From: Protonemura montana
Lineage: Eukaryota > Arthropoda > Insecta > Plecoptera > Nemouridae
Assembly: GCA_947568835.1 (NCBI GenBank)
Contig: OX387603.1
Coordinates: 1,786,201 to 1,850,200 of the forward strand
DNA length: 64,000 nucleotides
Reading direction: 5' to 3'
The notes beneath the pieces are model-generated. The model saw nothing but the letters and a program-made list of their open reading frames with translations, was not told where the DNA came from and did not search any database. Below, piece after piece: positions 29,701-63,858 of the stretch. The position numbers and the translations under genes were made by a program. Positions within the stretch are counted from its first letter, which is position 1. Every line of letters starts with the position of its first letter.

Positions 29701-32700
29701 ACAGCTGGCTCCCGTTGGACGTGTACCTATTACGGGACAGAGACACTTAAGTACGAGAGAACAAGAGTGGCATCGACAGCCAGAGCTAGGTTAGCTAGGT
29801 TTAGAAACGGCAAAATTTTGAGTAAATGGGAAAGAAATTTTGACAGAGTTGCGATAGGCAGATTTAGCAAAGACCGAACTGTGTTGGAAATATCGGTTTA
29901 CATGAGATTACTGAAGTTTAGTAACACTGGGCTTGGTCAGGTATTGGTTGGGTGACCATCATACACATGACCAGTTCTGTTCGGCAGAGAGGTTGGAGGG
30001 ATGAAAGTTAAGCAACACTGCGCTGGGTCAGGTATTGGATGGGTGACCATCATACACATGACCAGTTCTGTTTGGGAGAGAGGTTAGAGGGATGAAAGTT
30101 AAGCAACACTGCGCTTGGTCAGGTATTGGATGGGTGACCATCATACACATGACCAGTTCTGTTCGGGAGAGAGGTTGGAGGGATGAAAGTTAAGCAACAC
30201 TGCGCTGGATCAGGTATTGGATGGGTGACCATCATACACATGACCAGTTCTGTTTGGGAGAGAGGTTAGAGGGATGAAAGTTAAGCAACACTGCGCTTGG
30301 TCAGGTATTGGATGGGTGACCATCATACACATGACCAGTTCTGTTCGGGAGAGAGGTTGGAGGGATGAAAGTTAAGCAACACTGTGCTGGGTCAGGTATT
30401 GGATGGGTGACCATCATATACATGACCAGTTCTGTTCGGGTGAGAGGTTGGAGGGATGAAAGTTAAGCAACACTGCGCTGGGTCAGGTATTGGATGGGTG
30501 ACCATCATACACATGACCAGTTCTGTTCGGGAGAGAGGTTGGAGGGATGAAAGTTAAGCAACACTGCGCTGAGTCAGGTATTGGATGGGTGACCATCATA
30601 CACATGACCAGTTCTGTTCGGGAGAGAGGTTGGAAGGATGAAAGTTAAGCAACACTGCGCTGGGTCAGGTATTGGATGGGTGACTCCCTAATAGACTAGG
30701 TTAGGTCCATCATTATTCACCGATGCCATAAGGCCAGTGCCACATGGCCGGTTATCAAAACATTGCGTCATTACACCCCAATAATCGATCAAACAGACTT
30801 ATTCATTTTTTTTCAACTCGATGGCTGATTTTTTAGAGACCGTTTCTATCTTGCTTGGTCGACATTTGAAGGACTTTTTAGAACTAGTTTGTTAAGATTT
30901 TAATGAGAATACTGCGTTATATACACAAAAAAATAAAAGGAAAATTGAAATTTTAACTGGCGATTATAAAGACATATAAAATAAATTGTATTTCACTGCC
31001 GCTAATGTTTTGTCTCTGCCAGGTGGATGGTGTCACCTACTTTAGCTTCCAGACTTGCATGTCCCGCTGCTCCTTCAGATGTTCCTGGATTCCTGCGTCT
31101 GGAACGTACGACGAGATCGTGTCTCCACCGCTCATGATCACGCCTGGAACATCGGAGCAAAAGTTCGGTCGCAGATTGCAAAGTTGGGTTCCAAGCTCTC
31201 GGCGTTTCAATCATCTGTCATCGGATTACATAACCTTACGCTTAGCTCGTTGCATCGATATATATTTTGTGAATACTTTTCAATTTTTGAGACGGTTATA
31301 ATGTTGTTAGTAATAAAATGCCCCGCGCATTGCAAGCGTTTGCAATTTAAATCAGATTTGATCCTAACACAAGTGTAGCTTGTGTGGGATTTTTCACAAC
31401 TTCATTTTTGTTTTCTTTCCATGAACCTTAACTGTACTATGTGTATATAATTGTCAAAAATTTTAAAGAATAAATAAATAAAATTATAAAATAATAAAGC
31501 AGAAAGCCCACCGGCGCTTTCGTGCTATGCAGGAAGAGTCTCGGCCGTGCCACTGAGGTTAAAATGCTACATAACAAGTATAACCATGGCAACCGCTATA
31601 GAAGACCAGTGTTGACAACTTACTGCAGAAGCCGGTGTGATCGTCGAGGTTGAACGGTTCAGGGGTTGGACAGACTGTGTTCACGTGGTGCCCGGCGTGG
31701 AACGAGTGAAGAACGCGACCGTCGAGCGTAGAGACTTTGACAGTCCCGTCGCTGCCCGCAGTCAAGATGCTACCCGTTGCTCCTCCGGCCCACGGCCACG
31801 ACGGATGCATGAACGTGAGGTCACGGATCACAGAGTTGTGGAGCTGTCGGGTTAGGTTAATGCACGGTCTTAGATTTGCATTTTATTTCAAACTGATTTG
31901 TACATTTTGTAAAACTCTTAACATTCTTCAAAGCCCTGTTTCTGTAACGCCAATCCCTTTCGTTCCCAATTCCTTTCCCATTAACTTTTAATCACGAGTA
32001 TTTTTACCTCCAAACTATGCTATGCTCAATCTGGAGAGAGATAGGGGAGATTCTCCGCGAGTCTACCTACATTGGTTGAAACTACCACATACGGTAGATC
32101 CAAACGATCCAACCAAGAACCGAAGTTGGGAAGTTAACCCTAGTGGCAGACGAAACACGGCTGTGGAACGAACTCCCTGCCTTGGTCATATATCGTCAAC
32201 ATATCGCCCCAACTCAAGCAAATTTAATCACAGCTTAACCTTGCAGTGGTTGACTTCGAATTAGATTCTGCAGAAATCGCTCCACGTTTTATCAAACATC
32301 AAGCCGATGTGACGATCTGCCCTCGTCACGTCCCCCTTCCCCAAGAACGCAAAGGAATTTAGACGCCGGTTGAAGGAAAACCAAAGACGGAACAATCCGA
32401 AAGACTAGTCCTGTAAATAACGTAGCTAACTTCAAATAACTTGGCTAACTTCACTGTATTACTAAATTAAATTTAATGTAACACTAACCGTACACCATAC
32501 AACCGGCGATCATGATTTAACAGAAATGTACTTTCCTATTACTCTAAGAACTTGCATTAGAACATGTACCAAGCCTAAGTATGAGAATAAATTAATAATA
32601 ATAATAATCTTTCCCCCGTCTTTAGATAGCGTTTCGGTGGCGGGTTTTGATGGACTTTTGATACGCATGCAGATACAAATAATTGTGGTCTTTCTTTCAG

Positions 32701-40368: not shown

Positions 40369-40684
40369 GTTAGCAACACTGCGCTGGGTCAGGTATTGGA
40401 TGGGTGATCATCATGCACATGACCAGTTCTGTTCGGGAGAGAGGTTGGAGGGACGAAAGTTAAGCAACACTGCGCTGGGTCAGGTATTGGATGGGTGACC
40501 ATCATGCACATGACCAGTTCTGTTCGGGAGAGAGGTTGGAGGGACGAAAGTTAAGCAACACTGCACTGAGTCAGGTATTGGATGGGTGACCATCATACAC
40601 ATGACCAGTTCTGATCGGGAGAGAGGTTGGAGGGATGAAAGTTAAGCAACACTGCACTGGGTCAGGTATTGGATGGGTGACCAT
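40369..40684 (+). mobile_element. 5S-derived SINE segments without tail, plus orientation
   Basis: About 3.5 tandem 91-bp segments, ending abruptly at gggtgaccatct with no SINE tail. Variants gcacatg and acgaaag are shared by the first two segments only. Confidence 0.85.
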
Positions 40685-40798
40685 CTGGCATGGCTATACC
40701 CTCGGATTTGTCTGTTGTGCTTATGTCTTCAGTCGAAATACTAGCTTAAGGAATGATACGATGTCGGGGTGTTTTACGGAGCAAGGCTCGCCTGTCAG

Positions 40799-41868: not shown

Positions 41869-44800
41869 CTGTTGGACAGAAACGGGGATTCTTGGATTGA
41901 CAGGATGGCATCACTTTGTGCTAGAAGCTGTTCAAGTCCCAAGCTACGTTGTCAGAGTATCGGGAAAGCCGTGCGAATCCTGGCGGGTTGGCAAAAGTTG
42001 TTTTCAAAAACACAATATGTTTTCTGCATCGCATTGGTTAGCAGATCTTGAAATAGGTTAGGTTAGGGTTGATTGTTGAGATTAGAACAAGGCCAGACTA
42101 TGAAACTAAAACGATTCTCAATTAGTGATCGACATTGACGGCGAGATGCGTGGGACAGGACAAAAATAACCTGGCACTAGCAAGCTTTAAGTAGAATGGT
42201 GAAACGCGCAAATATGTCTAGAGCTGTTTTGTGTCAAAATAGCACTCAGAGCGAACGAAATCATATGAAATCGCAGGTACGCTCTGGATAAATCAATGTG
42301 TGTTCTTTGGGAAATAACTTTTAGAGGACCATTTGTGTTCAAAAATGAAGATACTCGATCAAAGATGGCGCAGTGTTTTTTTTTTGACAAATAGTTTTGG
42401 AACAAAACGCGTCTGCTAGCACAATGTGAAATGGTTTGCGGTGCGATTGTTTTTCGTAGAGACACAATCAAACACGTGACTCGCGCAATGATGATTTCGT
42501 TTTTTTTAATGATTGGTATATTTTTCATAATTTGACAACATTCAGAAATGAACATGAAACCAATAAAAGGTGATAAATGTGACGGAAATTTAGACAGCGA
42601 TAAGAAGAAGAAAGTATTTTTGAACACATATGGGTAGGGACGAGGGTTTGTTTTGTGAGAACAGTTGGAGTGGAGGGACTGCTAGCTACACACTTAAAAC
42701 ATTCAAAATTTGCACTTTCATTTCGCCAGGATGCTCCTAAATTACTTAAAACGCACGTCATCAAGCAATCGCTTACTTTTCCCAATAAGAGATAGCAATA
42801 AAATAGGACATCCATGTTTGAGCTGCCTCTAAGTAAACTTTTGAAGCTACTAAATTTGAGCAAATTATGAGCCAATTCAGCAACTTTGTTAACACTCTGT
42901 CACTTAATAACGGTTCGTTAAAGACATCTATACTAGCACATAGAAAACATTTTTATATCCTTACCTAGCAGAACCTACAATTTAAATATTTCCCCATTCA
43001 ATATTACCTTCTTCATGTAGGTCTAACACATGTCGTACATAAATTTACACCGCGTAAGAAACTGAAGTACGTTGAACAATTACATTCTGATCTTATTAAT
43101 AACGAACATGCGGGAGGGAGATAATTGCTAAAGGGTTCACGAACTAACAGCATTAGACTTTAAAACACTAATAAATTATCAACATTTTTCTACCGTAATC
43201 TTAGATTGTAACTTTAGATCCTGTTTATGACTTGTTTTTCTAGCAGGTCAAGTCAGAGACGGGGAAGTGAACTCTGTCACTGGTTATGAACTGATGGGCG
43301 AGTGTTGATTGTCTTTCCTGATATTTCTCGCATACCGTTTCCTGACGGCAACTAACGAGTCATGTCATGCCGATACAACCATCCAACTTCATCCAACTTC
43401 ATCCAACTTCATCCAACTTCATCCACCTTCACACGGAACAGTTTGGCGTGTTGGAAACACCGGTCCTTGTTAGATCACCGAAGTTAAGCAACACTATGCT
43501 GGGTCAGGTATTGGATGGGTGACCGTCATACACATGACCAGTTCTGTTCGGGAGAGAGGTTGGAGAGATGAAAGTTAGTACAGCAACTTCACTCGCCTTG
43601 CTTATCAACCTCTCGACAGCATGGATTTGTGGAGGAATCCTGTTGTTCGCGTTGTACCGTCCTTCGGAAGGGACGTTAAGCCGGTGGTCCCCTTGGTCTT
43701 CAACAGGAGTAGGCTACGTGCCGGCACCGGGTTTACCTTCCTCCCTTCTAGGCTAGGTTAGGTTCATCATCATCCACTCATTCACCGACGCCATTAGACC
43801 AGTGCCGCATGACCAGATGTCAAAACAGTGCATCGTTAAACACCACAAAATATAAATAATTCAACTTTCATATGACACCCGCACTTGAGCAAGGGATGGG
43901 AGACAAGGGGTATACGCAAGGAGGGGGCACTGTACCCACTGTGACAGACCGTTCTCGCCACGCCACGTCAAGTGCACTTACCACTAAGAAATATAAGTGC
44001 TTTTAGTTATTTTTTATGGTGCCTCGCCCCGATCGACCTCCTGCTTGCGTATGCCATTTAAAAAACCTGCCTCTAGCCGTCGAAAAATGGTGCGATATCC
44101 ACATTGGATATAAAGGTTCGGCAAGAGTCCTAGCGCTAGTGCTAAACTGCATTCGCAAAATAATACCGATCAATTAATTTTACTACACCGATGAAAATAG
44201 AGTTGCTACCAGATGGCGTCACCGTCGTTTTGAGTTTTAAGAATTTGTATTTCGTTATTTCTCGCAAATTACTCGCACTTGAGCCTGGTTTACGCTAATT
44301 TAAACATCATTAAAGCTAATCTCAACGATTGATAAACGTGTTGCTGTATTTTGAGACGTATATCTTTAATTGTTGAGGTTTTTTGAAATGGACACCAGCA
44401 AGCGCCATCTGGTGGCACCTACCGTCACCACGTGTTGCCGGCCTCGTTTGCTCAGCAGTACATTTAACATAAGCGCTGACCCTTTGACATATAAACCTAA
44501 CGACATATCAAGAATCCCGAAGGTGGCCACCATTTTGTAACAAGACAGAGCGTAGCAGTGTGTAATGGTGGTTATAGTGAACTGATTTAGTGCATGGTGA
44601 CGACCGCGCGGTGCTGCGGTTGTAGGCTGAACCTTCGCTTGGCGGCTGCTGTCATCCCCTGGGCGAAGCTGACAGGTGGGCCTGATGACCACAACAATAC
44701 GCTTGCACAAAGACATGGCACAAGAGAATCCTTTAAGCTCAGAGCATTGAGGTCATCTACTACCTATAACTGGGACTAGCACAACCAACGTAGCTTGCAC

Positions 44801-47800
44801 AAAATCATAGCACAGCTGTGTTCTTAAATAATAATATATAAATAAAAACTCCCCGTCAGCTCTCAATGGCAAATCTATGACCAACCTAGACTTTGTTTGC
44901 CCTGCAGAGTAAAATTAGTGAAAATCTGCTAGAAAGACATGTCTATCAAGGAAAACGACGCCATATCCCGCAGCAAGGCAAATCTAGAGCTGTATTTCAG
45001 TCACACGAGTGTTAATACCGAACACTTGATTAAAAAGGAACAAATTAACGACTTCAAAATTCCAGTTTCAGAGAGATTCGAGACGGAAACCGTCCTACGC
45101 ATGCCCAGTGTGGAGTGATGATGTCATCGGTCCACATTCAACGCAGGGTCGGGCATGCGAATAACTGTTTTAGACACAAATCTAATCTCTCCGTAGCTGA
45201 AAAATTGAAAGAAAAACCGGCAGAGAAAACAGGAAATCCGCCATCAGCTGTCCTGTGGTTGATAAAATAAGCAACAATCAGGTTGCAGTGTTTTTTTGGT
45301 TTTCTAGCATTTCCACTAGGGAGCTCAAACCAGCAAGCGGATGATGGAAAGGGTGATCCCTTATCCCAACCCCGCGAAAGCTGGAATATGTGTGTCCGGA
45401 TAGCTCAGTTGGTAGAGCACCCGACCGGCAATTGGGAGGTCCAGACTTCGTATCCCTGTTCGGTTGCACATTTTTCCAGTCTAGCTTCCTTTCCAACAAT
45501 CAGGTTGTCCAATCTGTTGCGACCAATTTGGGAGTCGATACATCAGCAAAGTTGTCATGGGGATAGAATTGTAATTTCTGAGAACTGTTCGCCTTGCAAA
45601 CAGCAGCGATGAAGAGGTGATAGATGTTGGACGCAATTACAAACTCCCTGGCTTTACCTTGTGAATCACGACGTGGCTGTTGTGCTCCATGCGACGGCGA
45701 CCCCCCTGGTCCTGGAGGTACTGCCTCACCGCTCAGTCCTGACACGGGACGTTGCTCATCCAACAGCTGCTCTTCACCACCCTGGCTTGACACTGAAGTG
45801 CGAGATGTTGCCTTGGTCATCCCTGACGGCCGCGTACTGCCCTGTAAGATCAGGGTGCAGTGTCTTAAAGATCCCATCAATATTGGAAGGTCAGGGTATA
45901 GGGCTTAGTAGGATCACCCCTATGTTTGAACCGAACGGTTTGGCGCGTTGGAAACATTGGTTCTCGTTAGATCACCGGAGTTAAGCAATACTGCGCTGAG
46001 TCAGGTACTGAATGGGTGACCATCATACACATGACCAGTTCTGTTTGGGAGAGAGGTTGGAGGGATGAAAGTTAAGCAACACTGCGCTGGGTCAGGTATT
46101 GGATGGGTGACTATCACATACATGACCAGTTCTGTTCGGGAGAGAGGTTGGAGGGATGAAAGTTAAGCAACACTACGCTGGGTCAGGTATTGGGTGGGTG
46201 ACCATCATACACATGACCAGTTCTGTTCGGGAGAGAGGTTGGAGGGATGAAAGTTAGTACAGCAACTTCACTCGCCTTGCTTATCAACCTCTCGACAGCA
46301 TGGATTTGTGGAGGAATCCTGTTGTTCACGTTGTACCGTCCTTCGGAAGGGACGTTAAGCCGGTGGTCCCCTTGGTCTTCGACAGGAGTAGGCTACGTGC
46401 CGATACCGGGTTTTCCCTCCTCCCTTCTAGACTAGGTCAGGTTCATCATCATCCACTCATTCACCGACGCCATTAGACCAGTGCCACATGATCAGATGTC
46501 AAAACAGTGCGTCGTTAAACACCACAAATCAATCAATCAACCCTATGTTGAATTTGAAGGAAAAGGTTTGAGCAGTAGTGTTTGGATAGGTCATGATTTT
46601 GTTGCCTTGTGGCAATCCTGGTATCGAATGGTTTAGCAAGCGAGCGATCGATTGCATCGAGGGAAGAGATCGTGAAGAAGTCTTGCGGTTGTTGAAGAAC
46701 AAACTGGAAGAGATGATAAAGACGCCATCCTAGAGACGGTATACCACACAACATCAATGGTACGAACGACTAAAACAACGCTAGTGATCGTGCAGGTGCC
46801 GCACTTGCATTGACCTGGCGTTGTCTTGAAGACCAATCAGATTCATTGTCAACATTCAACAGGTGTTTGCAGCTCGGCACCTGTCACGTTATCTACAACT
46901 AACAGCAACCACGTGATGGCTTCTACTTGCGTTAGCTACCTGTTGGTTTTGAGCATTACGATTGGCGGTTTTAGGGAGAGTAGTCGACTAGAAGAGAGGA
47001 AAGAGATTATGTTTATCTACGAAATAACGGCGTAAAGCGAGGGAGGGAGAGAGAGGTTCTAAAGCGAGCGAGGGACAGAAATAAACAAGACAGATCGGAG
47101 AAGTACATGGCATTTTGTAAAAGTTTTCTTGCCATACTCAAGCGAAGGTTCAAGTGACAATCTATTGACAAAATACATTAGTTTTTAAGTTATTGACTCT
47201 GATTATTTTATTTAGATGCATTTAGGAAGCTTGAACTTGGTAATTGTTATAATTTTTTGTGGTTCTTTTGCTATCTGAAAATTGTCAGGACTGCTCTTAC
47301 CCTTGATAAAGTAACAGGTACAAGTTACGAAACGTTGGGAAATTTAGTTGTTCTTCACTTAGCATTCAAAACCCAGTTGAAATAGTTTTTATTAAAACTA
47401 GTGCTAAGTTTAGATCAAGTAGACATGAGTCTAAGAATTAACATTTCTTTTATGTTCATCGCCTTATAAAATGTTCGGCCCACGTCCTCTTGAGCGCGAG
47501 CGATACTGGCACATTACATAACTTCATGGTAGCGATTCTAAACGTACTCTGTTAACAGGCTTAACTGCGCTGTAACCTAAAAATACTTTGTGAATCCAGA
47601 AGCAAAATAAAGATGACTTTAGCATAATATCTTTATTGTGAATCAAAGAAATGTGACTTGAAGTGGATGAGCGTAACACCTGTTCTCATCAAGTCGCAGC
47701 TCCGACGCTCACACCGAACAGTTTGGCGTGTTAGAAACACCGGTTCTCGTGAGATCACCGAAGTTAAGCAACACTGAGCTGAGTCAGGTATTGAATGGGT

Positions 47801-49663
47801 GACCATCATACACATGACCAGTTCTGTTCGGGAGAGAGGTTGGAGGGATGAAAGTTAGTACAGCAACTTCACTCGCCTTGCTTATCAACCTCTCGACAGC
47901 ATGGATTTGTGGAGGAATCCTGTTGTTCACGTTGTACCGTCCTTCGGAAGGGACGTTAAGCCGGTGGTCCCCTTGGTCTTCGACAGGAGTAGGCTACGTG
48001 CCGGCACCAAGTTTCCCCTCCCCCCTTCTAGGCTAAGTTAGGTTCATCTTCATCATCATCCACTCATTCACCGACACCATAAGACCAGCGCCGCATGACC
48101 AGATGTCAAAACAGCGAGTCCTTAAACGCCAATAAAAAAATAAAAATATATCCAACGCTTACCTGCATCCTGAATGCGACGATCTCCGCGATAAGCCTCC
48201 TGTCCTCCTCCTGCGAGTCTCCCATCAAAGTGAGCGCACTGTCGTTCACCTCTATGATGTGTTCCCGACCATCTTTGCCCACCAGCACCTCGATAGCGCA
48301 AAGCTCCAAACCACCAAACACTTCTGACACCTCGTCGATCCACAGCTTGTAGCGGTCTGTCATCTGGATCTGCTCGAGGATCGCTGAGCCGGTGTTGGTC
48401 TTCCAGTTGCCCGAGATGGACTTACGCCTGCGAGGGGCGATCATCAACATGTCAGGGACAAGATGGTAGAGACCAGAAGGTGAACTCATGGACTGTCTTA
48501 TTGGTAAAAAGTTCTTCACTGAAAGGTTTGGTGTCTTGGAAACACCGGTTGTCATGAGATTACCATAGGTGACCATCATACACATGACCAGTTCTGTGCG
48601 GGAGAGAGGTTGGAGGGATGAAAGTTAAGCAACACTGTGCTGGGTCAGGTATTGGATAGGTGACCATCATACACATGACCAGTTCTGTGCGGGAGATAGG
48701 TTGGAGGGATGACAGTTAAGCAACACTGTGCTGGGTCAGGTATTGGATAAGTGACCATCATACACATGGCCAGTTCTGTGCGGGAGATAGGTTGGAGGGA
48801 TGACAGTTAAGCAACACTGCGCTGGGTCAGGTATTGGATGGGTGACCATCATACACATGACCAGTTCTGTTCGGGAGAGAGGTTGGAGGGATGAAAGTTA
48901 AGCAACACTGCGCTGGGTCAGGTATTGGATGGGTGACCATCATACACATGACCAGTTCTGTTCGGGAGAGAGGTTGGAGGGATGAAAGTTAAGCAACACT
49001 GCGCTGAGTCAGGTATTGGATGGGTGACCATCATACACATGACCAGTTCTGTTCGGGAGAGAGGTTGGAGGGATGAAAATTAAGCAACACTGCGCTGAGT
49101 CAGGTATTGGATGGGTGACCATCATACACATGACCAGTTCTGTTCGGGAGAGGTTGGAGGGATGAAAGTTAAGCAACACTGCGCTGAGTCAGGTATTGGA
49201 TGGGTGACCATCATACACACGACCAGTTCTGTTCGGGAGAGAGGTTGGAGGGATGAAAGTTAGTACAGCAACTTCACTCGCCTTGCTTATCAACCTCTCG
49301 ACAGCATGGATTTGTGGAGGAATCCTGTTGTTCGCGTTGTACCGTCCTTCGGAAGGGACGTTAAGCCGGTGGTCCCCTTGGTCTTCGACAGGAGTAGGCT
49401 ACGTGCCGGCACCGGGTTTCCCCTCCTCCCTTCTAGGCCAGGTGTGTGTTTACTTACATGAAAGCCTTGTAGTTCTGTCCGATCTTCTGGACGTGAATGT
49501 CATACTTTGAGTCAACGTATGGCTCGGTGGTACAATACGTGTTGGAAACTGCTACGACCGAGGCGAGGTCCTGGTAGTCGCCGATTGTGTCCACCTTTAC
49601 CTTGCCTAGGCCGCTGTGCGCATGTCCCACTTTGAAGACGACAGGGAACCTTGCCGAGCTCAG
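41651..49663 (-). CDS. Syn: Synapsin, C-terminal part (last 4 exons)
   Basis: Gene-level entry. Exons on the minus strand: 49663-49458, 48427-48163, 45841-45658, 41868-41651; phases agree (2, 0, 1) and total 873 bp, i.e. 290 residues and a stop. Exons 1-2 give the second half of the conserved C domain, with [57 protein letters not shown] and [20 protein letters not shown], all hallmarks of synapsin's ATP-grasp-like fold. Exons 3-4 give a Ser/Gln/Pro-rich linker and the closing [16 protein letters not shown], the E-domain-like tail. Synapsins tether and cluster synaptic vesicles at presynaptic terminals and bind ATP. The A and B domains and first half of C are not found in the window and should lie to the right. 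Introns carry SINEs close to the splice sites. Confidence 0.93.
41869..43376. other. Synapsin last intron, unassigned part
   Basis: AT-rich; minus frames of 146 and 116 codons at 42187-42875 are low-complexity AT translation without a recognisable family. Confidence 0.45.
43377..43426. repeat. 11-bp tandem repeat
   Basis: Four to five copies of catccaacttc directly before a SINE head. Confidence 0.9.
43434..43850 (+). mobile_element. 5S-derived SINE, full length, single segment
   Basis: The clearest complete monomer: head gaacagtttggcgtgttgga, then aacaccggtccttgttagat caccgaag and ttggatgggtgacc (5S-like), one 91-bp segment, unique tail, and end gtgcatcgttaaacaccac. No 3' poly(A). It is in synapsin's last intron, antisense. 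Confidence 0.9.
43851..45270. other. Synapsin last intron, right part
   Basis: No gene. Near 44205 and 44405 two inverted fragments (ccagatggcgtcaccgtc; gccatctggtggcacctaccgtcacc) and the shared taaacg/cgattgataaac motif (also near 8660) suggest an old repeat. Frames at 44366-44779 are not recognisable. Confidence 0.45.
45272..45507. mobile_element. tRNA-containing insertion with 14-bp target-site duplications
   Basis: caacaatcaggttg occurs at 45272-45285 and 45494-45507, flanking a 208-bp insert. At the left junction is a T7 run, so if retroposed the element lies on the minus strand with a short A tail. Inside, on the plus strand, is a tRNA-like sequence (45394-45468). No poly(A) is seen at the right end. 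Confidence 0.7.
45394..45468 (+). pseudogene. tRNA-like sequence (degenerate)
   Basis: Perfect A box TAGCTCAGTTGG (45401-45412) and D arm; anticodon arm CCCGA-CCGGCAA-TTGGG (anticodon position GGC); B box decayed to ACTTCGTATCC (45445-45455). The acceptor ends pair poorly. A tRNA pseudogene or SINE head, not a working tRNA. Confidence 0.65.
45658..45841 (-). CDS. Syn: Synapsin exon (linker)
   Basis: 184 bp; acceptor TGATCTTACAG|GGC and donor CACAAG|GTAAAG; phase 0 in, 1 out. Encodes [20 protein letters not shown], then a Gly/Pro/Ser-rich stretch to [12 protein letters not shown] is a plausible basophilic kinase site (inference). Assignment relies on phase fit and position. Confidence 0.82.
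45931..46541 (+). mobile_element. 5S-derived SINE with 3-4 segments, complete tail
   Basis: Head gaacggtttggcgcgttgga, three to four 91-bp segments, full tail, and end gtcgttaaacaccacaaatc with (aatc)n. Lies about 90 bp upstream of the synapsin linker exon acceptor, antisense. Confidence 0.9.
46542..47164. other. Synapsin intron, unassigned
   Basis: No recognised gene. Frames of 67-74 codons at 46533-47035 lack family resemblance. Confidence 0.4.
47165..47437. mobile_element. Family A repeat, single-arm copy
   Basis: gaccctgatt-type start (ttattgactctgattatttt), then ggactgctcttacccttgat, aagtaacaggtacaagttac and ending atcaagtagacatgagtct. The left arm of the foldback is absent, but the left flank matches 6031-6150. 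Confidence 0.75.
47712..48142 (+). mobile_element. 5S-derived SINE, full length
   Basis: Head accgaacagtttggcgtgtt, one segment, tail, ending gagtccttaaacgccaataa followed by an A-rich stretch that runs up to the synapsin donor at 48163. Confidence 0.9.
48163..48427 (-). CDS. Syn: Synapsin exon (C domain, WKTNTGSA block)
   Basis: 265 bp; acceptor GCCCCTCGCAG|G and donor ATGCAG|GTAAGC; phase 2 in, 0 out. Encodes [40 protein letters not shown], and the [14 protein letters not shown] block to AFRMQ. SINE copies sit on both sides: one ends about 20 bp past the donor, another starts about 90 bp before the acceptor. Confidence 0.95.
48520..49443 (+). mobile_element. 5S-derived SINE with about 8 segments, truncated tail
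   Basis: Head gaaaggtttggtgtcttgga; eight 91-bp segments in which the first three share gtgcgggag; tail stops at cttctaggccaggt, 15 bp before the synapsin exon at 49458. It occupies nearly all of that intron. Confidence 0.9.
49458..49663 (-). CDS. Syn: Synapsin exon (C domain, GHAHSG block)
   Basis: 206 bp; acceptor TATGTTCCAG|CTG and donor TTCAT|GTAAGT; phase 0 in, 2 out. Encodes [20 protein letters not shown] through YKAFM. The tail of a SINE (ending 49443) lies 15 bp from the donor. Confidence 0.93.
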
Positions 49664-50089: not shown

Positions 50090-51050
50090 CAATGATTACA
50101 TGCATTACGACCGGTCATTATTTCAGGATAGGAACAAGGGATATATTCCTCAGGTAAAGCGACGCATGCGCATGCAGTGGACGGCCTAACAGTTCGTGAT
50201 CCCAACCTGACTCAATATGATTGGGTTTAATATAGGGTTGCCATAATAACAATTTCGGAAGTCGTGACAAATTTTAACAAACGAAAAGTAGTTAGGCCGG
50301 AGGCTCGGGGGACAGAGAGAGCCCCCCAAAAAATAAGGGTGTGGATGTGGGAACAGGATTTGAGGGCCATTTTCAGCAAATTTACGCGTTTTAGATATAT
50401 TAAGAGTTTTCTTTGCACTTGAAATCCTGAGTCATATTTATGCATCAAATTTCAATTTATGAGCAGGAAATTTAGGTAAAATTCGTATAAATATTTGGAA
50501 AAAAATAATTTAACCATGGTTTTAAAATTTGTTTATGGGCGACAGTTCACGTACAATCATAATGTCATTGGCACAATTAGAGGAACAATTAGCTATTTAT
50601 AAGAACAATGCAAATGCAATGTTCGATTTCACGACTTTTGTAAAGAAAATTATGATCGAGCGGGACTTTTGAGTGAAAAGCGGGACGTATGGTAATCCTA
50701 GTTTAATATCCTTGAAGTTTGGTCTAGAGTGGAAATCATGAGGAGATCAAAACTTTGGTGGAGTTAAGACACTTACAAAACGGCACACATAGATATTTAA
50801 CAAATACACGATGGATAAAGTTGAATCCATTTCGAAGAGAATTACAAATCTTAGCTGATTAACCCAATGAAAACCAAGCAAAAACAAATGTGAAACGTCA
50901 CGGCCAAGTTGTCTGTACGTCACGATTTCAACATTTCCCGAGTGCTTCACTGTCAAACTGGCACGATGCAACAAGTTCACTGAGTCGCCGCCAGGTGGCA
51001 GCAACAGTGACAGCAGCAATATCGATAAACTTCATGCCGCCCCAACATCT
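50090..51050. other. Unassigned sequence before tRNA-Asn
   Basis: AT-rich, no gene recognised; presumably synapsin intron. Confidence 0.45.
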
Positions 51051-51067
51051 GCCTCCGTGGCGCAATT

Positions 51068-51107
<40 letters not shown>

Positions 51108-51124
51108 GAGTCCACCCGGGGGCG
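51051..51124 (+). tRNA. tRNA-Asn: tRNA-Asn (anticodon GTT)
   Basis: Complete cloverleaf: acceptor GCCTCCG/CGGGGGC with discriminator G, D arm GGCGCAATTGGTTAGCGC, anticodon arm TTCGG-CTGTTAA-CCGAA (anticodon GTT), variable AGGTT, T arm GGTGG-TTCGAGT-CCACC. It is close to animal tRNA-Asn as I recall it. T5 at 51129-51133 is the terminator. No intron. Probably nested in a synapsin intron on the opposite strand. Confidence 0.96.
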
Positions 51125-51305
51125 GTTCTTTTTGTTTTTACTCACAAGCTTCAAATCAATTTTAATCATAGTATTTTTCATTTGCCAAAGTTCCTGTTGC
51201 ATCCTTGCTAGTTATTACTTAAATATCATTGAATATTTATTTAACGCCTTAGCAAAAATAGCAAACGTTCTCTGGCTTTCGCTGAACTTTAAAATTTTTC
51301 GTTGT

Positions 51306-51776
51306 GGCATGTCCTGGCATGTCCTGGCATGTCATGGCATGGCATGGCATGGCATGGCACGGCATGGCATGGCATGGCAAGGCATGGCATGGCATGGCAT
51401 GGCATGGCAAGGCATGGCATGGCATGGCATGGCATGGCATGGCATGGCAAGGCATGGCATGGCATGTACTGGCATTTCCTGGCATGTCCTGGCATGGCAT
51501 GGCATGGCATGGCATGGTATGGCATGGCATGGCATGGCAAGGCATGGCATGGCAAGGCATGGCAAGGCAAGGCATAGCATGGCATGGCATGGCATGGCAT
51601 GGCATGGCATGGCATGGCAAGGCATGGCATGGCAAGGCATGGCATGGCAAGGCATGGCAAGGCAAGGCATGGCAAGGCATGGCAAGGCAAGGCAAGGCAT
51701 AGCATGGCATGGCATGGCATGGCATTTCCTGGCATGTCCTGGCATGTCCTGGCATGTCCTGACATGTCCTGGAATG
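51306..51776. repeat. GGCAT satellite, second array, with GGCATGTCCT units
   Basis: About 95 units in the same orientation as 6857-8394, but with a 10-bp variant ggcatgtcct clustered at the left end, in the middle (about 51466-51495) and at the right end (six in a row). Open frames of 132-243 codons are shadows. Confidence 0.97.
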
Positions 51777-52479
51777 TCCTCGCTGCAATTGCATGGTCTA
51801 AATGAAAAAAAAATCATCTTGTACTTCACTGAATTCCATTCCGAGCCTCTGAGCAGCCTCTAAATACCAAGCCATGCTGCTCACACATCAAAAGATTGAA
51901 GAACTCGATAAACATTCGGTGACAAAATAAATAAATAATTATCCGCATCCTGCCTGTTGTCACATTCACTTCTCAAACACCCCCTTGTGTATATTCGCGA
52001 AATCCGCCATTACGTCACTTGCTTTCTGTGAATTCTGTTATCAAACCAAGAAAGGACTTCTTTCATTGGGGCCCCACCCGAGCGACACCTGTTTGCAACT
52101 CTCGGCGAAACTAACAGCTTGTACGGGTACACATGGGTGTGGGCGAAAACGATTAAAATGTGGGAGAATCACCTGACAATCTTTCTGATATTACAGTTAA
52201 GATTGGTATTATCGGAGAACAAAACTTGGGAGCTAAAATCAAACTGTCAAAGTTCTCTTTGTCAAAAGCACCGCACAAGAGAGTAAAGTCGAAGAATTAT
52301 TCTCTTCTGTCGTCCATCATCCCACTAAGAATACCGGTTGATGATTTTGCTCGCGGTCAACTTTGATTCTTCAAGCTTCGGATGTTTTAAACGACCTAAT
52401 CGTCGAACCTTGTCAACGAAATAATACGTTGCTGTGAAATCTGATTTTAATTCCAAATGCTGGAAACGGGCCTGGGATC
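51777..52479. other. Unassigned sequence
   Basis: No recognised gene; 63- and 68-codon frames lack family resemblance. tgctgtgaaatctgatttta near 52430 resembles a motif at 10593 (gttgtgaaatctgattgaaa) adjacent to the other array cluster. Confidence 0.4.
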
Positions 52480-53380
52480 CCATGCCCTATCCAGGTCATA
52501 AGAGATCATCTGGCTGGATCCTATGCCCTATCCAGGTCATATGAGATCAGCTGGATGGATCCTATGCTCTATCTAGGTTATTTGAGATCAGCTGGCTGGA
52601 TCCTATGCTCTATCCAGGTTATTTGAGATCAGCTGGCTGAATTCTATGCTCTATCCAGGTTATTTGAGATCAGCTGGCTGGATCCTATGCTCTATCCAGG
52701 TTATTTGAGATCAGCTGGCTGGATCCTATGCTCTATCCAGTTTATTTGAGATCAGCTGGCTGGATCCTATGCTCTATCCAGGTTATTTGAGATCAGCTGG
52801 CTGGATCCTATGCTCTATCCAGGTTATTTGAGATCAGCTGGCTGGATCCTATGCTCTATCCAGGTTATCTGAGATCAGCTGGCTGGATCCTATGCTCTAT
52901 CCAGGTTATTTGAGATCAGCTGGCTGGATCCTATGCTCTATCCAGGTTATTTGAGATCAGCTGGCGGGATCCTATGCTCTATCCAGTTTATTTGAGATCA
53001 GCTGGCTGGATCCTATGCTCTATCCAGGTTATTTGAGATCAGCTGGCTGGATCCTATGCTCTATCCAGGTTATTTGAGATCAGCTGGCTGGATCCTATGC
53101 TCTATCCAGGTTATTTGAGATCAGCTGGCTGGATCCTATGCTCTATCCAGGTTATTTGAGATCAGCTGGCTGGATCCTATGCTCTATCCAGGTTATTTAA
53201 GATCAGCTGGCTGGATCCTATGCCCTATCCAGGTCATAAGAGATCATCTGGCTGGATCCTATGCTCTATCCAGGTTATTTGAGATCAGCTGGCTGGATCC
53301 TATGCTCTATTCAGGTTATTTGAGATCAGCTGGCTGGATCATATGCTCTATCCATGTTATTTGAGATCAGCTGGCTGGAC
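52480..53380. repeat. 41-bp minisatellite, array 2 (inverted relative to array 1)
   Basis: About 22 copies of ggatcctatgctctatccag gttatttgagatcagctggc t. A diverged form (gccctatccaggtcataaga gatcatctg) occurs in the first units and again near 53220, so variant units have been moved within the array. Confidence 0.97.
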
Positions 53381-53854
53381 CCATTATCTATCGACAAGCC
53401 GCCACTGGATGAAATGTATCGCCACGATCTGAAGCGATTAGTTGAATGTCAAAGTGACTGAAACTCGACAATGTATTTACCGTGTACAGCTGAAAGCGAG
53501 CCGTACTTAGCAATTACACACGAGTCACGTGTGCTGATAAACAAGTCGAAGTACATACTACGTTGCGATTGCATCAATTACATCGATATCAATGAGTTAT
53601 CGAGCATCGCATTCTAGCATCGAGCGATCGTGCATTATTCAAGTGGCCGTTCTGAATAAAATATCGATCTTTTCAGCTGTCAAATCGAGCTATTTTAATT
53701 TGAAAATATTATGTAGTTTTATATTGAATTTATAAGCTGGCTGTTTAACTGTGTGGCAATAACTTCTGCACTTTTGAATTATTAAAGCTTTGTTTCATCT
53801 TAAGAAGTCAAAGTTGATCTCATGCGGAAGTAGAAGCTGGTTTGGAGGGTCTTA
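53381..53854. other. Unassigned sequence
   Basis: No gene seen; short palindromic cgatatcaatgagttatcga near 53583. Confidence 0.45.
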
Positions 53855-55018
53855 CCGAACTGTTTGATGTGTTGGAAACACCGGTTCTAGTGAGATCACC
53901 GAAGTTAAGCAACACTGCGCTGGGTCAGGTATTGGATGGGTGACCATCATACACATGACCAGTTCTGTTCGGGAGAGAGGTTGGAGGGATGAAAGTTAAG
54001 CAACACTGCGCTGAGTCAGGTATTGGATGGGTGACCATCATACACATGACCAGTTCTGTTCGGGGGAGAGGTTGGAGGGATGAAAGTTAAGCAACACTGC
54101 GCTGAGTCAGGTATTGGATGGGTGACCATCATACACATGACCAGTTCTGTTCGGGGGAGAGGTTGGAGGGATGAAAGTTAAGCAACACTGCGCTGAGTCA
54201 GGTATTGGATGGGTGACCATCATACACATGACCAGTTCTGTTCGGGAGAGAGGTTGGAGGGATGAAAGTTAAGCAACACTGCGCTGGGTCAGGTATTGGA
54301 TGGGTGACCATCATACACATGACCAGTTCTGTTCGGGTGAGAGGTTGGAGGGATGAAAGTTAAGCAACACTGCGCTGGGTCAGGTATTGAATGGGTGACC
54401 ATCATACACATGACCAGTTCTGTTCGGGTGAGAGGTTGGAGGGATGAAAGTTAAGCAACACTGCGCTGGGTCAGGTATTGGATGGGTGACCATTACACAC
54501 ATGACCAGTTCTGTTCGGGAGAGAGGTTGGAGGGATGAAAGTTAAGCAACACTGCGCTGGGTCAGGTATTGAATGGGTGACCATTATACACATGACCAGT
54601 TCTGTTCGGGAGAGAGGTTGGAGGGATGAAAGTTAAGCAACACTGCGCTGGGTCAGGTATTGAATGGGTGACCATTATACACATGACCAGTTCTGTTCGG
54701 GAGAGAGGTTGGAGGGATGAAAGTTAAGCAACACTGCGCTGAGTCAGGTATTTGATGGGTGACCATCATACACATGACCAGTTCTGTTCGGGAGAGAGGT
54801 TGGAGGGATGAAAGTTAGTACAGCAACTTCACTCGCCTTGCTTATCAACCTCTCCACAGCATGGATTTGTGAAGGAATCCTGCTGTTGGCGTTGTACCGT
54901 CCTTCGGAAGGGACGTTAAGCCGGTGGTCCCCTTGGTGCTCTTCGACAGAAGTAGGCTACGTGCCGGCACCGGGTTCCCCCTACTGCCTTCTAAGCTAGG
55001 TTAGGTTCAATAACATCC
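53855..55018 (+). mobile_element. 5S-derived SINE with about 10 segments and full tail
   Basis: Head accgaactgtttgatgtgtt, aaacaccggttctagtgaga; ten 91-bp segments with variant runs (gggggagag in two neighbours, cattatacac in two neighbours), then the tail, which runs into the 15-bp array at 55022. Confidence 0.9.
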
Positions 55019-55021
55019 ACT

Positions 55022-55216
55022 CATGGTCGTGGTTTGGAGGGTCGTGGTTTGGAGGGTCGTGGTTTGGAGGGTCGTGGTTTGGAGGGTCATGGTTTGGAGG
55101 GTCGTGGTTTGGAGGGTCATGGTTTGGAGGGTCATGGTTTGGAGGGTCATGGTTTGGAGGGTCGTGGTTTGGAGGGTCGTGGTTTGGAGGGTCGTGGTTT
55201 GGAGGGTCATGGTTTG
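55022..55216. repeat. 15-bp tandem repeat
   Basis: Thirteen copies of ggtcgtggtttggag / ggtcatggtttggag, abutting the SINE 3' region at catccactcatgg. Confidence 0.95.
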
Positions 55217-56364: not shown

Positions 56365-57984
56365 GTTCTTGGTGCTGTTGGACAGGAGCAGCCAACACAG
56401 TGTGTCAAAGTGACAAGGCTAAGCGGTGACCGGTCCTTGGTGCTGCTGGACAGGAGCAGCCAACACAGTGTGTCAAAATGACAAGGCTAAGCGGTGGCCG
56501 GTCCTTGGTGTTGTTGAACAGGAGCAGCCAACACAGTGTGTCAAAGTGACAAGGCTAAGTGGTGGCCGGTCCTTGGTGCTGTTGGACCGGAGCAGCCAAC
56601 ACAGTGTGTCAAAGTGACAAGGCTAAGCGGTGGCCGGTCCTTGGTGCTGTTGGACAGGAGCAGACAACACAGTGTATCAAAGTGACAAGGCTAAGCGGTG
56701 GCCGGTCCTTGGTGTTGTTGGACAGGAGCAGCCAACACAGTGTGTCAAAGTGACAAGGCTAAGCGGTGGCTGGTCCTTGGTGTTGTTGGACAGGAGCAGC
56801 CAACACAGTGTGTCAAAGTGACAAGGCTAAGCGGTGGCCGGTCCTTGGTGTTGTTGGACAGGAGCAGCCAACACAGTGTGTCAAAGTGACAAGGCTAAGC
56901 GGTGGCTGGTCCTTGGTGCTGTTGGACAGGAGTAGCCAACACAGTGTGTCAAAGTGACAAGGCTAAGCGGTGGCTGGTCCTTGGTGCTGTTGGACAGGAG
57001 CAGCCAACACAGTGTGTTAAAGTGACAAGGCTAAGCGGTGGCCGGTCCTTGGTGCTGTCGGACAGGAGCAGCCAACACAGTGTGTCAAAGTGACAAGGCT
57101 AAGCGGTGGCCGGTCCTTGGTGCTCTAGGACAGGAGCAGCTAACACAGTGTGTCAAAGTGACAAGGCTAAGTGGTGGCCGGTCCTTGGTGCTGTTGGACA
57201 GGAGCAGCCAACACAGTGTGTCAAAGTGACAAGGCTAAGTGGTGGCCGGTCCTTGGTGCTGTTGGACAGGAGCAGCCAACACAGTGTGTCAAAGTGACAA
57301 GGCTAAGCGGTGGCTGGTCCTTGGTGCTGTTGGACAGGAGCAGCCAACACAGTGTGTCAAAGTGACAAGGCTAAGCGGTGGCCGGTGCTTGGTGCTGTTG
57401 GACAGGAGCAGCCAACACAGTGTGTCAAAGTGACAAGGCTAAGCGGTGGCCGGTGCTTGGTGCTGTTGGACAGGAGCAGCCAACACAGTGTGTCAAAGTG
57501 ACAAGGCTAAGTGGTGGCCGGTCCTTGGTGCTGTTGGACAGGAGCAGCCAACACAGTGTGTCAAAGTGACAAGGCTAAGCGGTGGCTGGTCCTTGGTGCT
57601 GTTGGACAGGAGCAGCCAACACAGTGTGTCAAAGTGACAAGGCTAAGCGGTGGCTGGTTCTTGGTGCTGTTGGACAGGAGCAGCCAACACAGTGTGTCAA
57701 AGTGACAAGGCTAAGCGGTGGCCAGTCCTTGGTGCTGTTGGACAGGAGCAGCCAACACAGTGTGTCAAAGTGACAAGGCTAAGCGGTGGCCGGTCCTTGG
57801 TGCTGTTGGACAGGAGCAGCTAACACAGTGTGTCAAAGTGACAAGGCTAAGCGGTGGCCGGTGCTTGGTGCTGTTGGACAGGAGCAGCCAACACAGTGTG
57901 TCAAAGTGACTAGGCTAAGCGGTGGCTGGTCCTTGGTGCTGTTGGACAGGAGCAGCCAACACAGTGTGTCAAAGTGACAAGGCT
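56365..57984. repeat. 68-bp minisatellite, array 2 (inverted relative to array 1)
   Basis: About 24 copies of ggtccttggtgctgttggac aggagcagccaacacagtgt gtcaaagtgacaaggctaag cggtggcc. Variants (ggtgctt, tggctgg, aagtgg) occur in small runs. Confidence 0.97.
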
Positions 57985-60474
57985 ATTACGGAATAGTGGT
58001 ACAGAGGTACAGAGGGAAGAGGATATCAAAATGAAGTCATCCTTCATCTTCCCGTGTTTACCCCTATCACTGACGCAGTGTGTGGTCGAATGCGTCGGTA
58101 ACCGCGCTGTTCAGTCCGCTTCTTGTTAAGTTTCTATAAATAGTTTGTTGTTGTGGAGGATTACACTTCGGATGGGTGTTGCGTTGTGCAGGAAACGTCA
58201 CCAGGAGCTTGTAACTGCGACTGGCCCGAGTACGGAGGCGACTCACTCGATGGTAATGTGATTACCAAGTCATGCTCGGGGATAAAAAGCGTAATGACAA
58301 TTCTTGGGCGAGTGTTGTTGTGCGTTTTGTTGATCGCTTTCTCAAGTAATTAATAATGCAAGATGATTGATTGCGTTGGGCGTGGCAAAACAACTAATTA
58401 ATGTGTCACTGTGTTTTGTTTAAATTCGAGCTTTAGTTGACCTGGAAATATGATATTCATAAAAATAAAATGAATCGTGTTCAAATGCTAATAAGAATAA
58501 TTGTTTTATTTAGGAAGTTTATTCTAGTTTTGTTTGGTTCTGGAAATCAATATAATGCCACTCATGATGGGATTTTTCCATGGATTTCACAAATGATTAG
58601 CAATAATGAATAACATTTGAATGTTGGTCATTTGTTCAAAGTGATTTGATGGATTGGGCAAAATCACTATTAAATTCCACGTGGGTTTCAAATCGTCCGA
58701 TACAATCTCAAGTGTAATCTATTGTATTATTGTGTTTAACGACGCACTGTTTTGACAACGAGCCCTGTGGGATGGGTCTGATAGAATGTGTATGATCAAC
58801 ATATCCCTGATAAGGCTGTTGAAAAATAAGTCAATGTTTGGCAATGTCTGCTTCGAACGAAGCCTTGCAATGAGGAGCACTGTTTATAAAAGAAATGAAA
58901 AACCGCTTCAGCAATTCGAGGTACTCAACCAATAAACTTACCCGATAAATAAGTAATAATATTTTTCTTTTCATAAATTTCCCAGAAGACCGGCGTAAAA
59001 ACCAATAAAAAGTGTAATCATTTTGTTTGGCAAACACAGATTGTCAAAGGTTGAGATAACAAATGAATTTTCCTCTTGAAGAAATCTCCTTGATTGGTAA
59101 TAAATCGACGCATAAGCTGAGAGAAGTTGAAGCACAAAAGATATTTCTAAAAGCAACCGCAAGGAAAGTCTGTGGAATTTTACACGATGACCGATCTAAT
59201 GGTTCTAGACTTTAGTTTAGCTTGGATATAAGCACACAACCCACCATTGTACTCGAACATTCACTGACAAAATCAACGTCACAATCAACGTCACATTTGT
59301 GACGAATTCGATCGTATGACAGTCACAGATTTAATGACGTCAATACAAGAATGTCAGGACCACATCGATCTCTATGCAGTGAAGAGGATGGAGCGACCAC
59401 CATGGTACCTTCATGGTACCCGACCAAACATGAATCTGTACATTATAACAAACCTATACACACTATAACGTCTTATAATATCTTTAAATAAATATCAATC
59501 GATGGTATTTTGAAGTAAATATGGCTTAAAAATCAGTACAAAATACAAGAAATAAAGAAACTACATAACCTAGTTTTGAACAAGCCAGCGACCCGGCATC
59601 GAAGCCAGGCCGCGGGATGGTTCATGGGTAGACACAGATCTATGGTTAGGTATTGTCATAGGTAAGAGATTTCTGCGGCGTTGAATCATAAATATTAACA
59701 TTAATTTTATCAATGGATTCATAGAATATCATGATGTCACTTATAAAGAAATGATTAGAAAATGTGCGGTTGTGTGACTTGATTATATTGATATCTATTT
59801 ATAAGTTCACGCAACATTTTTTATTAAATTACATAAATAAATCAAATGTCCTGTCCAATACCGATAGCGGTTGAAAGAATACTGCGATCGAAAGATTGAA
59901 TTCAACGAACCTGCGGTAGTTTCCGATTTCCTAATCAATCGCACTCAACATTCCCATGATTCTTACAAGATTAGAACAATGACACACTTTAGATAATATT
60001 TTAAGTTTAAGAATCATCGACTTTATGTAAACCAGACTCTTCCATGAAGGTAATGTTGCAAAGAAACATTGTATTCAGTACTATACACCGTTTATTCTTG
60101 TTCAGAAGAAAAAACTGACGTTTAAAGTATTTTTAACCCCCAATCGTCGCCAAACTCCAACAGCAAAATGTGTAACGACAGTAAAACGCTTGTCCCATAT
60201 TATGGTCATTTGATATGATCTGGCGGTAGAATCAAGTTTTCAGTCCATCGACTTCGATCGTTGAAATCCCAGCTGAAAGACCACAGAACCGAAGCTTTGT
60301 CTGTGAAGAAGATCCTCGAAGTGCATTCCAAGCTTGTCGATACCAACTTAAGCTAGACAATAGGCGATCAATCAAATTTATAACAGAACTACAATCGCAT
60401 CTTAACATGTTATTTCTGGTAGACGAGAATGATTTACAAATATATATATGAAGATAAATAAAAGATATGGCAAG
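57985..60474. other. Mostly unassigned AT-rich sequence
   Basis: A GC-rich patch at 58192-58252 is open on both strands: plus TSPGACNCDWPEYGGDSLDG between GTGCAG| and G|GTAATG, minus PSSESPPYSGQSQLQAPGDV. I cannot decide whether either is an exon. A 5S-SINE 3' scrap, minus orientation, is at 58731-58806 (gtgtttaacgacgcactgtt). Nothing else is recognisable. Confidence 0.4.
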
Positions 60475-61556
60475 GTCTTACACCTGGGACCTCTCGAATG
60501 CAAGGCAGACATGGCGCTCTCACTACCAGGATAGCCGGCCGCCAGGATCGAACCAGGGACCTCTCGAATGCAAGGCAGACAAGGCGCTCTCACTACTAGG
60601 ATCGAACCTGGGACCCCCTGAATGCAAGGCAGACATGGCGCTCTCACTACCAGGATAGCCGGCCACCAGGATCGAACCAGGGACCCTCTGAATGCAAGGC
60701 AGACATGGCGCTCTCACTACCAGGATAGCCGGCCACCAGGATCGAACCTGGGACCCCCTGAATGCAAGACAGACATGGCGCTCTCACTACCAGGATAGCC
60801 GGCCACCAGGATCGAACCTGGGACCTCGCGAATGCAAGGCAGACATGGCGCTCTCACTACCAGGATAGCCGGCCACCAGGATCGAACCTGGGACCTCTCG
60901 AATGCAAGGCAGACATGGCGCTCTCACTACCAGGATAGCCGGCCACCAGGATCAAACCAGGGACCTCTCGAATGCAAGGCAGACATGGCGCTTTCACTAC
61001 CAGGATAGCCGGCCACCAGGATCTAACCTGGGACCTTCCGAATGCAAGGCAGACATGGCGCTCTCACTACCAGGATAGCCGGCGACCAGGATCGAACCAG
61101 GGACCTCCCGAATGCAAGGCAGACATGGCGCTCTCACTACCAGGATAGCCGGCCACCAGGATCGAACATGGGACCTCTCGAATGCAAGGCAGACATGGCG
61201 CTTTCACTACCAGGATAGCCGGCCACCAGGATCGAACCTGGGACCTTCCGAATGCAAGGCAGACATGGCGCTCTCACTACCAGGATAGCCGGCGACCAGG
61301 ATCGAACCAGGGACCTCCCGAATGCAAGGCAGACATGGCGCTCTCACTACCAGGATAGCCGGCCACCAGGATCGAACATGGGACCTCTCGAATGCAAGGC
61401 AGACATGGCGCTCTCACTACCAGGATAGCCGGCCACCATGATCGAACCAGGGACCTCCCGAATGCAAGGCAGACATGGCGCTCTCACTACCAGGATAGCC
61501 GGCCACCATGATGGAACCAGGGACCTCCCGAATGCAAGGCAGACATGGCGCTCACA
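60475..61556 (-). repeat. 70-bp tandem array of a tRNA-Ala-like unit
   Basis: About 15 units, most exactly 70 bp; the second unit lacks 16 bp. On the minus strand each carries a B box GGTTCGATCC, an A-box-like CTATCCTGGTAGTGAGAGC and an anticodon-loop-like TTGCATT (TGC, Ala). GCCGGC occurs at both ends of a unit and is self-complementary, so it can close an acceptor-like stem. The anticodon and T stems do not pair well, so these are tRNA-derived repeats rather than genes. Neighbouring pairs share variants in two-unit blocks (gacctcccg / catgggacctctcg), as in 61081-61400. Confidence 0.85.
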
Positions 61557-63155: not shown

Positions 63156-63858
63156 GAGGTTGGAGGGATGAAAGTTAAGCAACACTGCGCTGGGTCAGGT
63201 ATTGGATGAGTGACCATCATACACATGACCAGTTCTGTTCGGGAGAGAGGTTGGAGGGATGAAAGTTAAGCAACACTGCGCTGGGTCAGGTATTGGATGG
63301 GTGACCATCATACGTATGACCAGTTCTGTTCGGGAGAGAGGTTGGAGGGATGAAAGTTAAGCAACACTGTGCTGGGTAAGGTATTGGATGGGTGACTATC
63401 ATACACATGACCAGTTCTGTTCGGGAGAGAGGTTGGAGGGATGAAAGTTAGGCAACACTGCGCTGGGTCAGGTATTGGATGGGTGACCATCATACACATG
63501 ACCAGTTCTGTTCGGGAGAGAGGTTGGAGGGATGAAAGTTCATCAACACTGTGCTGGGTCAGGTATTGGATGGGTGACCATCATACACATGACCAGTTCT
63601 GTTCGGGAGAGAGGTTGGAGGGATGAAAGTTAAGCAACACTGCGCTGGGTCAGGTATTGGATGGGTGATTATCATACACATTACCAGTTCTGTTCGGGAG
63701 AGAGGTTGGAGGGATGAAAGTTAAGCAACACTGCGCTGGGTCAGGTATTGTATGGGTGACCATCATACACATGACCAGTTCTGTTTGGGAGAGAGGTTGG
63801 AGGGATGAAAGTTAAGCAACACTGCGCTGGGTCAGGTATTGGATGGGTGAACATCATA
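63156..63858 (+). mobile_element. 5S-derived SINE segments, about 7-8, without head or tail
   Basis: Tandem 91-bp segments beginning mid-unit (ggaggttggagggatgaaag) and ending at gggtgaacatcata. Variants include gggtaagg, gttaggcaac and gttcatcaac in single segments. Confidence 0.88.

Follow-up and report, generated by a model that had tools for sequence, protein, structure and literature searches.

The locus at positions 43434–43850 of the DNA analysed here, a 64,000-nucleotide stretch of the Protonemura montana genome that we call the window (1.79–1.85 Mb of one contig in an assembly of 258.5 Mb and 34 contigs), raises the question of what kind of element carries its own promoter in variable tandem number, and whether such arrays travel with the element or grow where it has inserted. 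The element is a 5S-rRNA-derived SINE of the SINE3 type, identified by a covariance-model match, comparison with the host 5S genes, target-site duplications and a simple-repeat 3′ end. The Rfam model RF00001 (5S model 1–120) matches the forward strand of the reported copy at 43433–43553 with 50.1 bits (cmscan, E = 1.8e-7), compared to a gathering score of 38 bits. Five 5S matches in the window exceed that score (54.4, 52.1, 50.1, 44.5, and 43.8 bits), and three are weaker (36.6, 34.7, and 30.1 bits). A search of the host genome with the same model listed 47 matches with a top score of 117.5 bits, and eight host 5S genes were taken for comparison with the SINE head. The head is collinear with host 5S 17–92 at 85.5% identity over 76 bases for six of the eight genes and 84.2% for the other two. 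The 5S origin claimed in the earlier note is therefore confirmed, and the lack of a significant 5S model match, which it had named as a refutation, was not seen. Direct comparison gives agreement at 70 of 92 positions, with complete identity at 45–61 (A box, 17/17) and 79–92 (C box, 14/14), 6/7 in the IE region, and weaker agreement elsewhere (5/16 at 1–16 and 9/17 at 62–78); the box names and their limits follow the usual 5S numbering. The 121-nt 5S part folds into a 5S-like three-way junction (z = −3.2; none of 200 shuffles equally good), in which the first helix would pair with bases other than in host 5S. At the start of contig C11 (from base 70), the host 5S genes recur every 9,508 bp, each repeat holding three genes of which one is inverted; this repeat may be linked to some other repeated gene unit.

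The one-unit SINE is 417 bp long; the 91 bp of it that are tandemly repeated are bracketed by a head and a tail in complete copies. It is short, repetitive and dispersed, and its simple-repeat 3′ end (AAT or CAAT type) agrees with the definition of SINE3. The reported copy (43434–43850, forward strand) consists of a head, a single 91-bp unit (43481–43571) and a 279-bp tail (43572–43850). The unit begins with AAGTTA at 5S 48 and ends 18 bp past the 5S part, spanning 5S 48–120 plus a linker, and the tail starts with AAGTTA, a direct repeat of the unit start, and closes in an AT-rich simple repeat. Each segment was said earlier to carry the stretch from the A box to the C box, and alignment to host 5S located the A box, IE and C box within it. 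As read from its sequence, each unit holds a complete internal control region, and with every expansion the potential sites for TFIIIA and Pol III would multiply. The consensus head and unit and the window's tail contain no run of four T, which would make a strong Pol III terminator. Among the genome matches listed for RVT_1 there were at least 150, and a search for the partner LINE in the fetched sequence found only 5′-truncated tail-like pieces. The conserved stretch of the tail (GGGACGTTAAGCC...) had no nameable counterpart in a literature search on SINE conserved domains.

Copies in the window differ widely in unit number. Complete copies lie at 12585–13089 (reverse strand, two units), 45931–46528 (forward, three units, with a 9-bp target-site duplication CCCTATGTT) and 47713–48131 (forward, one unit). 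A composite on the reverse strand (15581–16819) comprises a head, 11 units, a part unit, a second 5S head (GGTGACC joined to ACCGAACGG) and a short different tail, and an eight-unit copy (29866–30780, forward) has a diverged head and a different tail end (75%). Two further forward copies have truncated tails: a head remnant with a part unit and seven units (48526–49443, tail cut at tail position 187) and a head with 10 units (53854–55024, tail cut at 210). A headless copy retains two units and the tail (17859–18315, forward). Besides these nine unit-bearing copies, BLAST parsing yielded two orphan 91-bp arrays without head or tail (40372–40685, 3.5 copies, and 63156–63858, 7.7 copies, both forward) and one reverse-strand copy (13564–14699) in which a 15-bp array (TCATACACATGACCA, ~55 copies, 13873–14699) takes the place of the unit with a complete tail behind it. 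The segment numbers given before (1, 2, 3–4, 8, 10 and about 12) fit both the full units parsed from the nine copies (1, 1, 2, 2, 3, 7, 8, 10, and 11) and the nine 91-bp arrays called by TRF (2.1 to 11.5 copies each). The tail, described as constant, is not always so: it is truncated or different at 15581–15639, 30684–30780, 49443 and 55024.

The same structure is abundant throughout the genome. Pattern searches allowing up to two mismatches counted 26,565 unit–unit and 8,036 unit–tail junctions, as well as 8,937 head–unit junctions (92-bp-kind units included), with no hit for any of the reversed-pattern controls. At 91 bp each, the unit–unit junctions amount to ~2.4 Mb, or 0.94% of the assembly. 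The window and loci L009–L028 hold 50 copies with at least one full unit, each with 1 to 15; across all material, unit number ranges from 1 to at least 15, the most seen being 15 to 16. Many one-unit copies in the L009–L028 sample had been fetched for their resemblance to the query, and for this reason we sampled 20 tails systematically by taking every fifth junction among the first 100 exact unit–tail junctions, all on contig C1. Two or more units preceded 13 of these 20 tails, and the distribution ran over 0 (three tails), 1 (four), 2 (four), 3 (two), 4 (one), 5 (two), 6 (one), 7 (two) and 13 units (one). The ~8,000 natural copies in the genome, differing in the number of type 1 Pol III promoters, offer material for testing the effect of promoter number on transcription or retrotransposition.

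Target-site duplications closely bound multi-unit copies of up to five units. An exact flanking repeat of at least 9 bp was present in 11 of 30 complete copies compared with 4 of 870 mismatched pairings (30 of the 31 complete copies were used, and tail matches ending before tail position 270 were left out). Half of the six multi-unit copies are among these 11 (with two, three and three units). In a second sample with short flanks, a repeat of at least 8 bp was found in 3 of 12 copies with a head (five, five and three units) and in none of 132 mismatched pairings. The VNTR may be mobilised together with its constant 5′ and 3′ parts, which fits these duplications, and growth after insertion may fit them too. 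The starts of headless arrays were considered as marks of internal Pol III initiation and rejected, as they are scattered (unit positions 1, 2, 3, 5–7, 12, 19, 35, 46 and others), share no common point and have no clear target-site duplication.

The explanation that we consider somewhat probable is a 5S-derived SINE with a VNTR of its own promoter, in which arrays are born by slippage, retrotransposed and reshuffled, with limited local duplication added. The first duplication would have arisen by slippage or unequal exchange between two AAGTTA motifs spaced by 91 bp, one opening the unit and the other opening the tail. Copies with several units would then themselves be transcribed and retrotransposed, the array moving with the element as in primate SVA. 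Unit order and number would be reshuffled from copy to copy, either through exchanges between arrays or because the reverse transcriptase switches templates. Later, limited local duplication would give single arrays their private variants and higher-order repeats.

In the consensus of one-unit copies, exact 6-bp direct repeats bound the 91-bp unit (AAGTTA, offset 91) and likewise the 15-bp unit (TGACCA, offset 15). This suggests slippage or unequal exchange between short repeats and ties the origin of minisatellites to 6-bp direct repeats of an identified parent sequence. The element contains 21 exact direct repeats that are 6 bp or longer (15 expected from shuffles), and four 7-bp direct repeats gave no array; the presence of a repeat is thus not sufficient for array birth. 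In a third unit, of 92 bp, 5S 1–92 runs directly into the following 5S start. Its junctions number 1,752 (up to one mismatch), and half of the 14 fetched 92-bp loci run on into a recognisable tail of the 5S SINE family; no bounding direct repeat was found for this unit in the one-unit consensus. The dimer pattern of the 15-bp unit matches 5,796 times genome-wide with overlapping places counted. The 91- and 92-bp units have 5S 48–92, the internal control region, in common, the 15-bp unit overlaps the end of that region (5S 88–108), and all three units come from one third of the element.

It is rather unlikely, though of some weight, that the SINE is nothing special and falls victim to a genome that turns nearly any sequence into minisatellites. 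Tandem repeats make up 25.2% of a 264-kb sample (117 arrays; the sample is SINE-centred), so the SINE may simply share a general tendency, and array families of 41, 68, 114, 72 and 47 bp are dispersed too. A 15-bp array (55025–55216, forward strand; 13-bp core GGTTTGGAGGGTC) lies beside the 10-unit copy at 53854, with GGTTTGGAGGGTC just upstream of that copy (53839) and 12 further copies of it downstream within the array; with GGTTTGGAGGGTC on both sides, the array looks like an expanded target-site repeat, which again speaks for such a general tendency. Against it, one 91-bp register recurs genome-wide, and arrays are absent from the tail, two thirds of the element: TRF (score ≥80) found none over 50 tail pieces totalling 12,059 bp.

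Transposition of arrays with reshuffling, as we prefer, can be set against the variants within them. We aligned 226 units from 67 loci and tested variant mixing and Fst on the 26 arrays of at least three units, leaving shorter arrays out; the statistics exclude loci L001–L008, which overlap L009 onward or the window (L005 lies in L012, L007 in L013 and L008 in L014). For 12 variants, each present in six or more loci, none was fixed in any of the 26 arrays. The non-CpG variant 22A was mixed in 18 arrays, fixed in none and absent from eight, compared with 20.8, 0.1 and 5.1 expected under independent draws; three other variants behave like it, and Fst among arrays ranged from −0.04 to 0.20. First and last units were no more diverged than inner units (P = 0.80 and 0.61). 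The tabulation of segment number against tail age proposed in the earlier note was carried out and showed that tails are not more diverged in copies with more units (Spearman −0.32, P = 0.17, n = 20). Near-independent draws, unraised divergence at the edges and no age trend together argue against arrays each grown from one inserted unit; given the draws and the tail ages, arrays probably move and reshuffle with the SINE more than they grow in place. The frequency of 22A was 0.58 in one-unit copies (n = 31, a biased set, since most were retrieved because they resemble the reported copy) compared to 0.26 in arrays. Array units are accordingly not drawn from all SINE RNAs alike, which argues against template switching with one-unit RNAs.

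Interlocus gene conversion accounts for the mixing of variants as well as transposition does. The corresponding scenario is in our judgement unlikely: arrays would have originated once or a few times, unequal exchange or gene conversion would keep the ~26,500 unit junctions mixed, much as satellites evolve in concert, and array transposition would play a minor part. This scenario would explain why Fst is low and yet no unit order is common to any two loci when identical consecutive unit pairs are compared (nine such pairs exist, each confined to a single locus, and no multi-unit master was therefore recognised), and it fits the orphan arrays without head or tail. The target-site duplications around multi-unit copies of up to five units are more simply explained if arrays transpose, as is the clustering of the multi-unit state on the tail tree. 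On that tree, the one- and multi-unit labels required eight changes compared to a shuffled mean of 11.6, with 4 and 7 of 500 shuffles as low, while a single one of 36 inner branches was starred and support for the array history is correspondingly weak. As a judge between one and many array origins, the tail tree was set aside for its poor resolution.

Growth in place, in which one-unit SINEs insert and then expand locally like ordinary minisatellites, appears quite improbable as the main process, although local duplication has left its traces. Private variants shared by two or more units occur in 11 of 23 arrays, and units within an array are slightly more similar than units of different arrays (distance 4.2% vs. 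4.7%; none of 1,000 permutations as low). Higher-order repeats, of five units in locus L017 and three units in locus L055, and the tandem-rich genome sample point in the same direction. Such growth is opposed by the mixing of common variants at frequencies near those of independent draws with none fixed, by edges as diverged as the interior, and by unit numbers that do not rise with tail age. The earlier term "minisatellite generator" suggests expansion at the site of insertion, whereas the evidence better fits arrays that for the most part travel and are rearranged among loci and in addition undergo smaller duplications locally. Selection on the promoter, by which copies with more A–IE–C boxes would be transcribed better and out-amplify others, is the least credible alternative: the three units do converge on the internal control region, the 50 tail pieces are free of arrays, and tRNA-like segments of 52 bp (A-box-like) and 70 bp are tandem in other repeats of the genome, but the promoter focus rests on three unit types, perhaps three births, and the promoter part of the unit (1–44) is not better conserved in arrays than the rest (3.1% vs. 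1.6% at non-CpG sites). Conservation of the boxes in arrays was accordingly discarded as a sign of selection, the tendency running the opposite way.

Transposition and reshuffling of arrays, the reading that we favour, has partial counterparts in known systems. 5S-derived SINEs have been reported in Lepidoptera and Tribolium in the available text of three papers (PMC3272025, PMC8010984, and PMC10886601), and their promoters have A, IE and C boxes (PMC8010984). The SINE3 elements HaSE3, PxSE4, PxSE5, CsSE2 and LaSE2 of Lepidoptera, SINE3-1_TC of Tribolium and the zebrafish SINE3 resemble the present element in that their head is 5S-derived and contains the A box, IE and C box, their body is unrelated, and they end in a simple repeat and have target-site duplications, as far as the accessible descriptions go (PMC8010984 and PMC3272025). 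In the present element, by contrast, the promoter part is a VNTR, and the word "tandem" is absent from the main text of both papers. SINE-derived satellites (sSat) of squamates, among them a 67-nt snake unit that includes the B box, are described in the accessible text of Vassetzky et al. 2023 (PMC10702118). They are similar in that part of a SINE is tandem between the SINE's two ends at up to thousands of loci, and sSat show locus-specific alternating subvariants. They derive from tRNA-derived SINEs, reach hundreds of units and are more homogeneous at longer loci, according to that text (PMC10702118), whereas the element here is 5S-derived, has at most 15 to 16 units in the copies seen, shows little local homogenisation and would carry a complete type 1 promoter per unit. 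The amphibian repeats PolIII/TAN, OAX, Rana/polIII and Hy/polIII are also tandem with Pol III-like sequence, but in the portion of the source covering them they are without clear SINE origin (PMC10702118).

The SVA-type VNTR retrotransposons, described in the available part of PMC4432496 as specific to hominoid primates and remodelled at short microhomologies, offer a parallel in mobility. SVA, LAVA, PVA and FVA have a VNTR between constant 5′ and 3′ parts that is carried with the mobile element, and their unit order is organised by subfamily in the same text (PMC4432496), in contrast to the element here, where no common order was seen. They combine an Alu-like 5′ domain and a GC-rich VNTR with a 3′ part that is SINE-R or another hominoid sequence, and so differ from the 5S-derived head and unrelated tail found here; judging from its structure, the element would work like the SVA group and is not a member of it. 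A bolder proposal, which we put forward tentatively and hold to be less than probable, is that of an SVA-like mobile VNTR outside primates whose unit is a complete Pol III promoter: its multi-unit RNAs would retrotranspose and, through template switching or exchange of arrays, be reassembled into new mosaics at each insertion, and promoter number would be a fast-changing heritable trait. The behaviour that was earlier called unusual for a SINE has precedents in the squamate sSat and the SVA-type elements, as the cited parts of PMC10702118 and PMC4432496 show, and no 5S-derived SINE with a promoter VNTR was found in the open-access literature searched. Tandem arrays inside mobile elements are already known from squamates and apes, and what appears to be new here is the array built on a 5S promoter, which extends SINE-internal arrays to another lineage and another SINE class.

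Other repeats and genes were also noticed. A 52-bp unit containing a tRNA A-box-like sequence is repeated 2 to 13 times at L010:5727–5832, L011:793–1301, L014:2704–2859, L019:3745–3850, L021:5445–5600, L022:5699–6382 and L023:7259–7734; six of these seven loci have flanks in common, which resemble inverted terminal repeats enclosing a tRNA-like core. Another tRNA-like unit, of 70 bp (B-box-like GGTTCGATCC), forms arrays of ~14 copies in the window (60598–61553) and ~50 copies at L014:6280–9743, which have no flanks in common. Dispersed minisatellites of 68 bp (six arrays), 114 bp (three) and 72 bp (two) showed no flank similarity and those of 41 bp (seven) little. In these four families, sited in the window at 9313–10415, 56368–57985, 10892–11896 and 52475–53379 and in L011, L018, L019 and L022–L027, it seems to be the arrays themselves that have spread. 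Genes for tRNA-His (1712–1783, reverse strand) and tRNA-Asn (51050–51125, forward strand) are predicted in the window, together with a tRNA-like Rfam match at 45394–45466 (40.3 bits). Long CATGG-type arrays at 6857–8393 and 51305–51756 of the window are open in several frames and are probably simple repeats, not genes.
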